DNA of 64,000 nucleotides from Isoetes taiwanensis (lineage: Eukaryota; Streptophyta; Lycopodiopsida; Isoetales; Isoetaceae): NCBI GenBank assembly GCA_021234155.1, contig JAJEKV010000131.1, positions 62,001-126,000 on the forward strand, written 5' to 3'. The notes below the pieces were generated by a model, which saw nothing but the letters and a program-made list of their open reading frames with translations, was not told where the DNA came from and made no database searches. The position numbers were made by a program, and so were the translations under genes. Shown here in pieces: positions 7,341-60,580 of this stretch. Each line of letters starts with the position of its first letter. Position 1 is the first letter of the stretch.

Positions 7341-7738
7341 TTTTTTTTTTTTTTTTTTTGAAGGTGAGAGATGTTTTTTCCATTAATTAATTAAAGCCAT
7401 ACAGTAGTCTTACTAATGGGAGTAAAAGCTTCCACATTAGCATAGTGTTTAGTATAGTGATCCAAAAAGAGATTAGTAGTTGCATGTAATTAGCAACCAC
7501 TTCAAAAAAATAGCAACAGACAAGGAAGATAAATGAAATGTATATAGAATTCTGCTTTGCCCCCTATGAGAGAGCTCCAATAGATCTTGACCGAGATGCC
7601 AAGCAATGAGATCCAAAAAAACCTGCAAGAAGAACATGGACTTCCAAGTACCAGAGACTAATGTTAATCAAAGTAGACATATTATTGAGCATCAGCAGAT
7701 TTAAGTGGTTCATAATTTTAGGCTAATGTATGGAAGGA

Positions 7739-7803
7739 GGGATGACATGTGAAGTGGATCAGAAGAAAAAAGGGATGACATGTGAAGTGGATCAGAAGAA
7801 AAT
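7739..7803. repeat. 33-bp tandem duplication
   Basis: GATGACATGTGAAGTGGATC with its flank is present twice with a 33-bp period, just after the stop codon of the open stretch 7811-8280. Confidence 0.9.
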
Positions 7804-30576: not shown

Positions 30577-30797
<221 letters not shown>

Positions 30798-38890: not shown

Positions 38891-38992
38891 GGTGCGGTAC
38901 ATCTTTGCTTCAAATAGTTTCTCGCAGATAGGCTACTGGGTTATGCCCCTTGGATCTGCAAGTTTATCTCCCTTACATTTGGCCGTCCAACT

Positions 38993-39056
38993 TCTAGACC
39001 AAATCTGGACCGCCCAATTTAGGTTCTAGACCAAATCTGGACCGCCCAATTTAGGG
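38993..39056. repeat. 32-bp tandem duplication near the Helitron 5' end
   Basis: TTCTAGACCAAATCTGGACC plus GCCCAATTTAGG occurs twice. Confidence 0.9.
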
Positions 39057-51312: not shown

Positions 51313-52860
51313 ATGACGTGTATGTGTCAGAAACTAGACAATTATCAACATTGCTAGCATCGTCCTTAGGGAAATAAATGGGCGGCACAGCTGATATTGC
51401 TGCTAGCATTGGAATATCAGAAACATGCGCTCAGCTTCTTCATGACATGTTGGCATCGATTTTTTCCAATGAAGAGTTAAATGCAGATCTTTTGGCAAAA
51501 GCACCAGTAGATGAAATTGAGTCTGTTGGCATAGATGTTGATGATATCCTTCTTTTTTTCTTATCTGTTAATCTATTGGAAAGTTCCTCCATGGCCGCAT
51601 AAAGATGTTGCAGCTGTGGCAGTTTGAACTGTAGCCTGTCATCTAAATTTGTTGAAGCCCTCTTCATTCTACAGTAAATACTACATAATGCCAGTCTATG
51701 AAATGAAGGAACCATTTTTGTTAACTTGGTTTACAGACCAAATTATTGAGTCATTCTTATTTCCATATGTTGTTGTGCTGAACCTTAGGTTCGTATTTCC
51801 TTTTTTACTTGGCTATGCAACAAGGCCGATCTGCATTCCCTCCACTATTTTAGCGGTTGTTCCAGGTGCAGAAAAACAGGAATATCTGGAGACATGTACC
51901 CGTTGCAAGTTTTTGATGCCGTTTCAGCGGAATCTGCATTGGTTTCAGCGGAATCTGCATTGGTACAGTTGCCAATGCATAAAGATGATGTTGAGGTTAC
52001 GCAAGAAGTTTATTGTCGAGAAGTGCTTTTTTTGTATTACCCAACTGTGTGCCAAAAAGAGATTAAATAAGAAGAAACCGAGATACTATAGCTCGAGAAG
52101 ATGGTGAAAAATTAAGCAAGTGTTGGTCAAATTTGATTCGTGCTTAAAAACAACTTATTCTTCAGCGACTTGTGCTTTGTCCCAATTTCATATCTCCAGA
52201 GATTTCTAGAAAGGTAAGCGTAGCAACAGTTGTTGGTTCAAGTGCAAAGATGGATTGTAACTTTCAGCTTCTGGAATTTTAGCAAGCATATGCTATCAAT
52301 ACGCTGATGTTAGAGTTCTTGGAAATAATGGATCTTCATACAAAAAAACTATGACAAACTGCTTAGGCATGCGGCTCATAACATAACACAGTTGCAATGG
52401 TTCTAATTTTGGCTTTGGGTGTTTTGCATATTTCACACAGGGCACTTGATTTGCCTCCAAAGTTTCTGTGTTGGTACCTTGGAAAATACAACACTCAAGT
52501 TTCTGTGTTGGTACCTTGGAAAATACAACACTCTGTGAACGTCTTAGTCCGTTGCAAAATTGGCTTCTAAGACTTGCATGTGTTTTCTTGTCGAGTTGAA
52601 TACATAACCGAGTAATTAATGGTAAGAAAGCATGTCCATAGTGGCTTCTATCTTGCTTTATCTTCTATTCGAAATTGGTTATTTTATTTGGTGGCATGAG
52701 AAGAAAAGTTCAACTTATATTATTTTATGAGTGAATTGTTGAGTTATTGTTTTATGAGTGAACTGTTGTGCAGTGTTTTCTCCGTGTAGTTTTTCTGTGT
52801 TGAAGCATCTTTTAACCACCATGTTGTCCCATTTTACATGCTCGCTTGGCTTATTTTCTT
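51313..52860. other. No recognised gene; small duplications
   Basis: A 74-codon plus frame (51,378-51,602) and a minus frame across it are both protein-like, but I could not assign either. GGTTTCAGCGGAATCTGCATT-type words repeat at 51,924-51,962. Also a 37-bp tandem duplication (52,459-52,534). Confidence 0.4.
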
Positions 52861-58079: not shown

Positions 58080-59330
58080 AGATGTTATGAGCTACACCAA
58101 TAGCTCTGATAAATCCAACTCTAGTTCACCAAAACTAGAACAAGTTCCTAAACCACAAGGAAATTATTGGTAGTTCTCCACCCAACCGGACCTACCGGTG
58201 TAGAGTTCTGGCAGAATTAATGGCAAAGCAGAAGGCAATGGCAAAGCTTCACAACTAGTTTCGGAATTATCGGCAAAGGGAAGCTCAATTGGCTTTTGGG
58301 CGTCATGAGACTTAAGGCTGGTTCGGAATCGGCAAAGCAATAATTGATGACGCCCCCAATCCGAAGATGGCCGTTGATGGAGTCCCTGAAGTTTCGATGC
58401 AAGCCTTCTTAAGAATCCGATGCTGCCTCCCTCTAAATCTGTCGCTGATCCCTTTTTAAAAAGGCCCGATGCCTTTTGCCATATTCGGCTCTTCCTATTA
58501 AGATTGGCCTTAATAATACTTAACCATTAATATCATAATATCTTAGAGATATTATTTAACTATTACAAACATAAGATGTCTTTGCCAATATGTCTGCCTT
58601 GCCTTGCCATTATTTCGCCAATCTCACACACCCATGCTAGTCCACCAAGACCAACGTTCACGGCCACTCCCCCGAGCTACCATATTCATAACGATTCCTC
58701 CCTTTTTGAAGGCAACTGACCTCAGTTGTGTCCATAAATAAATTAAGCACCAACTTAATTTATCCAATTGAGCACCAACTCAATGCATTTTAGGTTCAAG
58801 TTTGAGGTAATGATCTCACAAATAGCACCAGCTATTCATGACGATCGCTTTTGTTGAGGCTATAGGTTTGGATAAAGTAAATCCTATGTTTATTCTAATT
58901 TAATTAAATCTCCTAATACAAGAATTGGGTCAAGTTTGTAAGAATTTTAAGGATTCCATTGAGGCACCAACCTCTGCCAGTAGCACCAACTACTGATTGC
59001 AATTTACTTAGACACCAATCTAAAATTGCAATTTCATCCATTAATGATTACAAGTATGGCACCAACCATAATTTTGTATTATATTAATGGCATGAACAAT
59101 CATCTTAAAGAAATATAACAATTTTAGATATAAAATATCTAAATTCTAAACTAAATCCTTAGTCATGCTACTTTTTACCAGGTAAATAATAACCTATCTT
59201 CAGTTTGCGGTTCTCTTCCTCCATATGCGCTACGTGAGCTGCTTTCTTCTCCGCTTTTAACTTCTCATCTTCATCTAAACCTGGATCTATTTCCTCTATG
59301 TGAACATTATGCATTTGCCCTTCAATGCTT
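58080..59330. other. Insertion carrying an array of hairpins with the loop CACCAA
   Basis: Nine perfect inverted repeats share a six-base loop. Stems (left arm) and positions: GAGCTA 58,089-58,106; TCTAGTT 58,120-58,139; ATAAATTAAG 58,738-58,763; ATTGAG 58,767-58,784; AATAG 58,821-58,836 (loop CACCAG); GAGG 58,961-58,974; CAGTAG 58,978-58,995; TTAGA 59,008-59,023; TATGG 59,055-59,070. The last two extend through small bulges (TTGCAATT...AATTGCAA; CCATTAAT...ATTAATGG). Between the groups lie other perfect palindromes without this loop: TTCTTAAGAA 58,406-58,415; CCTTTTTAAAAAGG 58,451-58,464; TATTAAG-ATTGGC-CTTAATA 58,496-58,515; ATAATATCT-TAG-AGATATTAT 58,535-58,555; CAACTGA-CC-TCAGTTG 58,713-58,728. 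GGCAAAG occurs four times at 58,220-58,340. No protein is encoded. The exact borders are uncertain. Confidence 0.8.
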
Positions 59331-59359
59331 TTTCGTGGCCCAGCTTGCTAGGGCCAGCT

Positions 59360-60027
59360 TTGCTAGGGCCTCTGACAGCGATTATTAACCAGGCCATAAG
59401 GGAGGGCCTCCCGGGGGAGTGGATGGTTAGCAAGGTCACCCCAATTCATAAGACAGGTAATAGGGATGATTCGGCGAACTACCGCATGATCATGATGAGC
59501 CCATTACTCGCAAAGCTTTTAGCAGGTGTGGTGGAGAAGAAGTTAACTCAGTGGGCTGAGGAAGCTGGAGTGCGTGGAGTTGGCCAGGCGGGGTTTCGCC
59601 CTGCCCACTCCACAATCGACCATATATTCACTCTCAGAATCCTTATGGAAGCTACTCGCAATGCGCGGCGTGACCTGTACTGCTGTTTCGTAGATTTCAA
59701 GATGGCATATGATACGGTCCCTCGGGACCTGTTGTGGCAGCATTTGCAGGCGCTGCATGCCCCACAGGACTTACAAAATGTCATCTATAGACTCTATGAT
59801 GGGATATATGCTGCATTGCCTGCATCAGATCAGCGAGTTGCTAGCACCATAGGGGTTAAACAGGGATGTCCGTTATCTCCAACGCTCTTTGGTCTCGACA
59901 TTGACAAGTTGGAGACATGGATGCAAGAACATGTGGGCAGTGGCCCGCAGCTACCAGAGGCATACAGTATAAGGCAATTGCTCTATGCAGACGATGTAGA
60001 CTTGCTATCCCATACAACCAGGAGTAT
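59360..60027 (+). pseudogene. Reverse transcriptase of the second LINE (front part)
   Basis: One open frame holds the RT core: VTPIHKTGNRDDSANYRMI, FRPAHSTIDHIFTL, YCCFVDFKMAYDTVPR (motif A Asp), IGVKQGCPLSPTLFG (motif B) and LLYADDVDLLSH (motif C). The frame runs into the inserted element at 60,028, just after SHTTRSI. Confidence 0.9.
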
Positions 60028-60580
60028 CATTAGAGGAAAAATGAGATCACATTTTGTCCCATTAAGGGATGCTTAAAATTCCATGTCAGCTTTTTAAACT
60101 GTCCAATAAGAGAAGAGCTCCAGTATATCTCATTCCAGTATTATGTGGCAGCCTGTAATTAATGCAACTGCAACTAACTTCTGTAGTATTATTTTTTCAT
60201 TATAACTTTTGATCCAGAACTCCGATTCAAAAAACTTTTTGTAGCAATGGGTTCGTCTTCACAAGATCTATCTAGTGATAATCCATTCATACATCTTTTA
60301 CGATATAAATATATAAGAAATAAGCAAAAAATCATATTTTTTTAAGGTTAACGCATATGATCATATTGAAATACATCATAACTATATATTATTGGAAAGA
60401 TCTTTTCATTCCGCATCTAATACAACAAACGCCGCAACATTTTGGCAAGTGGATCAAAAGTTATGGGGGAAAAACAACAGCAATAAAGTTGGTGCTGCAT
60501 TAATTGCAGTTAATAGAGGGTAGCCATTCCATTGGAGGATTCTTATGGGGATGAAATGAGATCTCAAATTTCCTCTAATG
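60028..60580. mobile_element. Non-autonomous TIR transposon inserted in the LINE RT
   Basis: The ends CATTAGAGGAAA...TGAGATC (60,028) and GAGATCTCA...TTTCCTCTAATG (60,580) are inverted copies over about 38 bp with roughly three quarters identity. Removing 553 bp restores the LINE reading from TTRSI to QQHLDALSGFCD, which proves an insertion. Subterminal words (ATTAATGCAACTGCAACTAA near 60,160 and TGCATTAATTGCAGTTAAT near 60,500) are also inverted. No transposase and no clear target duplication. The superfamily is undecided. Confidence 0.82.

Follow-up and report, generated by a model that had tools for sequence, protein, structure and literature searches.

The published systems closest to the locus described here concern protein-read hairpins, self-association of retroelement RNA, repeated hairpins and non-autonomous retroelements. 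The nucleocapsid of HIV-1 binds loops that contain GGAG or GGUG in the psi stem-loops (PMC3759924), and Copia associates with its own mRNA (PMC11835246). The plastid trnY-trnE spacer of Equisetum contains dozens of hairpins with stems of 3–13 bp and a partly conserved, A-rich loop of 7 nt in which AAA adjoins the stem, and an origin of these repeats from a tRNA anticodon arm has been suggested (PMC3098776). TR-GAG is a named class of non-autonomous element (PMC10552921). Here we describe an array of short hairpins with different stems and one loop, UUGGUG, in Isoetes taiwanensis. The array was found in a stretch of 64,000 nt of contig JAJEKV010000131.1 (positions 62,001–126,000; hereafter the window), and the segment that carries it is the 3′-terminal part of a small long terminal repeat (LTR) retrotransposon of the Ty3/gypsy type that in its complete form, at locus L245, encodes Gag only.

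A search of the single 1.66-Gb genome with the window segment returned at least 65 matching pieces in at least 37 stretches, the window included, among the best 40 of 958 candidates scored. Many copies begin exactly at window position 58083, and many of those fetched stop matching at 59339, where the host long interspersed nuclear element (LINE) resumes. L245 comprises, in order, an LTR, a primer-binding site (PBS), a frame of 419 amino acids, a 3′ untranslated region (3′UTR), a polypurine tract (PPT) and a second LTR. Its LTRs are identical over 612 bp (ends TGATATGA...TCATATCA), which indicates a recent insertion, and they are bounded by a 5-bp target duplication, CGAAC. The PBS motif TGGTATCAGAGC, which we take to fit initiator tRNA-Met, lies two bases past the 5′ LTR, and the PPT AGAAAGGGAGGAAT precedes the 3′ LTR. 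The single long internal sense frame encodes an intact Gag, and the remaining internal region spans only about 460 bp; pol was found in none of the L245 frames, although no separate search for pol domains was made. The Gag matched Retrotrans_gag (E = 2.9e-17; 63.1 bits, cut-off 24.1) and Ty3_capsid (E = 1.4e-7; 31.6 bits, cut-off 29.1), and one CCHC box (zinc knuckle) was spotted in it by eye. L245 therefore combines the features that define LTR retrotransposons, namely direct LTRs with a target duplication, a PBS and PPT, and a Gag capsid domain of Ty3/gypsy type.

The window copy retains a single LTR, the 3′UTR and the last 56 Gag codons (Table 1). Its ten hairpins are distributed as two at the LTR end (58095 and 58127), one near the LTR start (58643) and seven in the interval from the Gag stop to the PPT, and L245 likewise has seven in the 3′UTR and three in each LTR. 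Across 37 loci, 271 hairpins with at least four Watson-Crick pairs were identified, and their order is largely the same between copies. An early idea that the first two hairpins interrupt LINE coding sequence was wrong, as both are inside the LTR.

A preliminary description of the window had listed nine hairpins at 58089..59070, with perfect arms of 4–10 bp around CACCAA or, once, CACCAG. All nine were confirmed in place and in arm and have identical orientation, whereas a tenth hairpin and the dispersed repeat with its sharp edges had gone unseen. The description also held that CACCAA elsewhere in the window lacks such arms, and this proved correct. Nine of the 27 CACCAA sites have arms of at least 3 bp, all of them inside 58095–59060, and the remaining 18 have arms of 0–2 bp; among the nine CACCAG sites, that at 58826 has arms of 5 bp and the other eight have arms of 0–1 bp. 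The tenth hairpin is the ninth CACCAA site, at 58643, which has 3 perfect bp and on the minus strand forms a 7-bp stem that includes two G-U pairs.

Chance was evaluated with 200 block-wise dinucleotide shuffles of the window, in which hairpins sharing one loop word of 5–10 nt were counted. With arms of at least 5 bp, the largest number of hairpins with a common loop word was two (169 shuffles) or three (31 shuffles), compared with seven for CACCAA. With arms of at least 4 bp the maximum ranged from three to six (six in 2 of 200 shuffles), compared with eight for CACCAA, and CACCAR with arms of at least 5 bp, observed eight times, occurred once in seven shuffles and never in the other 193. Genome-wide, a pattern describing three such hairpins in an array gave 169 matches, with overlapping and tandem matches counted apart, versus one for the reversed pattern. 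The pattern is thus not as frequent in shuffled sequence as in the window, equal frequency being the outcome that the preliminary description had named as one that would speak against it, and a chance or compositional artefact, refuted by both controls and with no point in its favor, is so improbable as to be negligible. A known RNA family was also ruled out, since the window contains no Rfam match at the gathering score and no tRNA. The triple pattern was found in viral and bacterial contigs as well, where, of the 236 loci listed, those richest in CACCAR stems are mainly tandem repeats of one stem; we attribute these to coincidence. The window itself is plant DNA, with fragments of pentatricopeptide repeat, nodulin-like transporter, 2-oxoglutarate oxygenase and LINE-type proteins.

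The strand read in the preliminary description is the antisense strand. The sense strand of the element is the minus strand, and the loop in RNA is UUGGUG, because the minus strand is the coding strand of the element and because G-U pairs extend two stems on it, that at 58643 from 3 to 7 bp and that at 58826 from 5 to 10 bp. Such sense G-U pairs are frequent and common to copies, being present inside the 58643 and 58826 stems in 27–32 of 36. A single loop variant occurs in the window: CACCAG, or CUGGUG in sense, which puts a C-G in place of a possible U-G loop-closing pair. The minus strand folds more stably than the plus strand at 10 of 10 sites, an observation that is weak alone since the minus strand is richer in G and U. 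When the strand richer in hairpins or loop words was taken as sense at each locus, as in all counts of words by locus given here, 13 of 15 sense UUGG(U/A)G words in L245 were on stems of at least 4 bp and the opposite strand had no such word; of the 175 sense UUGGUG words at 19 Gag-bearing loci, 159 were on such stems, versus none of 21 antisense words; and at 75 genome loci a 4-bp Watson-Crick stem was present on 165 of 303 unique sense words versus 4 of 71 antisense words.

Conservation was examined in an alignment of 36 rows (A1), which omits L278, L280 and, at some loci, second pieces of the element; the copies are related, and cells counted in the alignment are thus not independent. The mean pairwise difference was 0.062 in loops and 0.064 in stems, compared with 0.159 for the remaining 3′UTR, 0.137 for the end of gag and 0.298 for the remaining LTR sequence. 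Pairing was retained in 97.2% of stem cells, versus 34–45% with slid partners, a comparison that favors the unslid stems since these were defined on the window copy. Two-sided stem changes were observed in 11 cells, a number reached in 0 of 500 shuffles (mean 2.7), and slid versions gave 3–8. In the U5 hairpin a C-G to U-A change converts GAGCUA/UAGCUC to GAGUUA/UAACUC in L258, L269 and L271, and further two-sided changes are U-A to C-G in hairpin 58748 and G-C to A-U in hairpin 58965.

Of 348 complete loops, 294 match UUGGUG (TTGGTG) exactly. Changes are most frequent at position 2 (22 cells), and positions 1 and 3–6 vary in 7–11 cells each. The UUGGAG variant (5 of 348) is carried by a 6-bp stem in each of the two L245 LTRs and by an 11-bp stem in L313. 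Divergent families, with Gag ends 41% and 71% identical, have different stems with the same loop, located past the Gag end. Longer, re-stemmed versions occur where UAUGG/CCAUA is replaced by AGUACUAUGG/CCAUAGUAUU in L313 and GUUGGUC/GACUAGC by GAUGUUAGUC/GACUAGCAUC in L312, positional equivalence having been judged by eye. The maintenance of loop and pairing while the flanks diverge suggests a structure under selection, as the preliminary description had proposed, and the uncompensated drift of stems that it had named as contrary evidence did not occur in other copies.

Several relatives without any match to Gag retain the array. At L273, L274, L275 and L277, LTR pieces flank an internal region without a Gag match, and L277 has the PBS word with more hairpins after it. 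Five separate Gag-less loci (these four and L279) together have 57 of 82 sense UUGGUG words on stems of at least 4 bp, and antisense 0 of 3. Hairpins are also retained in the tandem arrays L290–L302, whose units have no Gag match; two tandem-array pieces have 26 of 32 sense words on such stems, and antisense 0 of 3. Thus, no antisense word is on a stem of at least 4 bp in Gag-bearing, Gag-less or array loci. Overlapping loci (L277 with L308; L290–L292) were excluded from the Gag-less and Gag-bearing word counts, and L239, L246, L251 and L267, which have no Gag match but may not span the gag region, were excluded from the Gag-less evidence. Because Gag-less relatives keep the hairpins, these probably act in cis, a role with which the retention is consistent without proving it. 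As a separate observation, the arrays L290–L302 (C233; spacings of about 1.17 and 1.95 kb) and L282–L288 (C38; about 1.46 kb), both composed of hairpin-bearing units in which Gag was not matched, resemble satellite-like amplification of retrotransposon pieces.

The array does not seem to extend to all relatives of this Gag. A Gag search gave at least 104 matches (best 100 of 6791 candidates), with one group at 53–100% identity that includes the hairpin-bearing copies and, among the matches listed, a second group at 41–49% identity, four members of which occupy open frames of 1109–1573 amino acids that are presumably gag-pol. Relatives of gag-pol type were listed on C966, C1042, C1027 and C1056. 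A gag-pol relative on C966 (L314, L315) has the PBS word, LTRs that are 94% alike, and integrase- and chromodomain-like sequence recognized by eye; UUGG(U/A)G or CUGG(U/A)G on a stem of at least 4 bp is absent from the 3.6 kb examined, which is part of the element. The same words on such stems are absent from the 2.2 kb examined, again part of the element, of a Gag relative with a 400-amino-acid frame on C1018 (L316, L317). The idea that the array is a general signal of the Gag family was therefore rejected; with these two elements examined in part, the array is a trait of the hairpin-bearing clade and a few related families, not of the whole Gag group. We also note three Gag relatives (42–45%) within 6 kb on one contig (C966:499693–505561).

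These observations lead us to favor, with moderate confidence, a reading in which a single protein, most likely the element's own Gag acting in packaging, would bind many of the UUGGUG loops of the element RNA at once. A multivalent site contacted through its loops is suggested because the repeated hairpin has a fixed loop and a free stem, and packaging by Gag is favored because Gag-less derivatives keep the array and because the array is beside the PBS and in the 3′UTR. The element RNA has some ten short hairpins that differ in stem but share a single loop, UUGGUG or rarely UUGGAG. Under this reading, Gag would likely bind the loops through its CCHC zinc knuckle, and the array would mark the RNA for encapsidation. 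Gag-less relatives that keep the array would then be packaged in trans, with pol presumably supplied by another element. A more specific proposal, which we advance tentatively and hold to be somewhat short of an even chance, is that the hairpins form a modular RNA address, in which about ten loop-only UUGG(U/A)G hairpins would be read by the CCHC knuckle of a Gag-only element to select RNA for encapsidation, and which would have passed down through several families, acquiring new stems by compensatory change, and been exploited by Gag-less derivatives.

A number of observations weigh against packaging by Gag or against selection on the stems. Seven of the ten hairpins are in the 3′UTR, whereas classical retroviral packaging signals are mainly in the 5′ leader. 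Two distant Gag relatives (42–43% identity), one of them with pol, are hairpin-free in the parts examined, and among the Gag-less loci L279 is weakest, with 8 of 20 words on stems. The number of extra pair types is no higher than in shuffles (the value was reached in 122 of 500), and there is little stem variation among close copies. Departures from the majority Watson-Crick pair comprise 52 sense G-U cells, 27 A-C or C-A cells and 35 others, so that the strand bias is modest, and since stems were taken from the sense pairing of the window copy, the comparison is biased toward G-U over A-C at stem ends and toward pairing over the slid versions. Folding z scores of the whole 3′UTR block (minus −4.05, plus −4.84, plus-strand DNA −4.27) make the sense strand no more exceptional than its complement.

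A host protein might instead bind the hairpins for export, stability, localization or translation of the Gag mRNA, roles that constitutive transport elements and Smaug-type recognition hairpins serve elsewhere. Most hairpins are in the 3′UTR directly past the Gag end, a conserved loop on free stems is typical of protein-read hairpins, and the CUGGUG variant fits the CNGG rule for Smaug. However, the usual UUGGUG does not fit that rule, C being the first base in 2 of 348 complete loops; the array persists in Gag-less relatives, where no Gag match is available for export or translation, and some of these have extra hairpins; and a role in the replication cycle is suggested by the presence in each LTR of three hairpins, two of which lie next to the PBS in L245. 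We therefore regard a host-directed element as unlikely, though it is the strongest of the alternatives. It is improbable, to a greater degree, that the array concentrates primer tRNA or aids strand transfer. The loop UUGGU complements ACCA at the tRNA 3′ end and recurs at the start of the PBS of the element itself, UUGGUAUC, and the PBS context ATTGGTATCAGAGC in L245 and L277 has TTGGT in common with the loops; yet the common word is short, any PBS starting with TGG would match in part, and the most changeable loop position is the U at position 2, opposite which the last A of the tRNA would stand.

Very unlikely, finally, is a template-switch or mobile-hairpin process that made or spread the hairpins without function, which is close to the scars of template-switching insertion that the preliminary description had listed among possible meanings. 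Certain subfamilies have additional copies of one hairpin (tgag/ctca, in L273, L275 and L277), and proliferation is on record for the stem-loop repeats of Equisetum plastids, whose loop is partly fixed (PMC3098776). Against such scars, the same ordered set has been inherited by many copies on one strand only, divergence is below that of the surroundings and the gag end, and two-sided changes occur. Two other meanings proposed at that stage fared better. Hairpins that an RNA-binding protein may recognize are consistent with the conserved loop and pairing, and folding sites of a replicating single-stranded element apply in the sense that an LTR retrotransposon carries the hairpins in its RNA.

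Table 1. Features of the retrotransposon copy and its host LINE in the window. Hairpins are written in sense as 5′ arm-loop-3′ arm.
Feature	Position	Strand	Remarks
LTR retrotransposon, 5′-truncated (gag end, 3′UTR, PPT, 3′ LTR), nested in LINE	58083..59339	-	Edges common to genome copies; anatomy via complete copy L245
3′ LTR, 611 bp, sense ends CGTTATGA...TCATAACA	58083..58693	-	58083 to ~58690 occurs twice in L245, L246 and L252
Hairpin GAGCUA-UUGGUG-UAGCUC	58089..58106	-	In last 25 nt of LTR; adjoins PBS in L245
Hairpin UCUAGUU-UUGGUG-AACUAGA	58120..58139	-	Near LTR end
Hairpin GUUGGUC-UUGGUG-GACUAGC	58636..58655	-	7 bp including two G-U; near LTR start
PPT, sense AAAAAGGGAGGAAT	58694..58707	-	Directly before 3′ LTR; kept in copies; same place in L245
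3′UTR	58708..59167	-	Seven UUGGUG-loop hairpins (one is CUGGUG in the window copy)
Hairpin AUAAAUUAAG-UUGGUG-CUUAAUUUAU	58738..58763	-	
Hairpin AUUGAG-UUGGUG-CUCAAU	58767..58784	-	
Hairpin UCAUGAAUAG-CUGGUG-CUAUUUGUGA	58816..58841	-	10 bp including two G-U; loop UUGGUG in 30/36 aligned copies
Hairpin GAGG-UUGGUG-CCUC	58961..58974	-	
Hairpin CAGUAG-UUGGUG-CUACUG	58978..58995	-	
Hairpin UUAGA-UUGGUG-UCUAA (59008-59023) with outer helix AUUGCAAUU/AAUUGCAAU	58996..59032	-	
Hairpin UAUGG-UUGGUG-CCAUA	59055..59070	-	First after Gag stop
Gag C-terminal coding end (...RKLKIGYYLPGKK), stop codon 59168-59170	59171..59339	-	98% identical over residues 364-419 to the 419-aa L245 Gag frame
Open frame with reverse transcriptase of host LINE, resuming past the retrotransposon (LINE from ~59340)	59279..60076	+	RVT_1 E=2.4e-21, residues 57-248

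No relative of the host LINE was found among viral contigs. In the window the LINE is interrupted again, at 60038–60560 (limits by eye), by a short insertion that resembles a miniature inverted-repeat transposable element and has imperfect terminal inverted repeats (60173–60216 and 60450–60493; 73% complementary). The same LINE region (window 59402–60027) was observed at L251:240–595 and L267:318–660, a few hundred bases from the retrotransposon and on the side opposite to that in the window, which may reflect a shared target preference or coincidence. Elsewhere, the window contains a perfect (ATG) microsatellite of 66.7 copies (30580–30779; 200 bp, 100% matches) and many two-copy tandem duplications of 20–121 bp with 100% identity (e.g., 798–1043, 7738–7802, 38992–39055, and 52460–52533).

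If the proposal of a modular RNA address is correct, the array would represent a packaging signal of a repeated, loop-only kind in a plant LTR retrotransposon. To our knowledge, how such elements, above all non-autonomous ones, single out their own RNA is largely unknown. A likely cis-acting RNA signal is here visible from sequence, with a defined loop, natural variants of loop and stem, Gag-bearing and Gag-less versions, and distant relatives seemingly without the array, and the predicted loop-specific binding by Gag is thus accessible to assay in vitro. A search of open-licence papers, represented in part by their text, yielded no description of a UUGGUG hairpin array.

Among known systems, PEG10 reportedly packages its own mRNA, and all eight PDB sequences matched by the Gag capsid domain are Arc (best E = 3.4e-6); we know of no repeated fixed-loop hairpins in the mRNAs of Copia, PEG10 or Arc. 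Elements of the TR-GAG class have gag and lack pol. L245, with LTRs, a gag domain and no pol in its frames, resembles them, the class being assigned by anatomy. A text search returned no paper that joins TR-GAG with hairpins, and the portion of PMC10552921 considered here does not mention such an array. The Equisetum repeats, as far as the cited part of that paper describes them, come closest, among the published patterns that we found, in combining a fixed loop with variable stems, and differ from the present array in that the latter has a 6-nt UUGGUG loop and belongs to a retrotransposon. The likeness to the HIV-1 psi region, drawn by analogy with the part of the paper cited above, is that short hairpins with GGUG in the loop, or GGAG in some copies, are carried by the RNA of a retroelement that encodes a Gag with a CCHC knuckle; the difference is that here about ten hairpins repeat the same loop, mostly in the 3′UTR, and that the Gag, of Ty3/gypsy type, shows one CCHC box.
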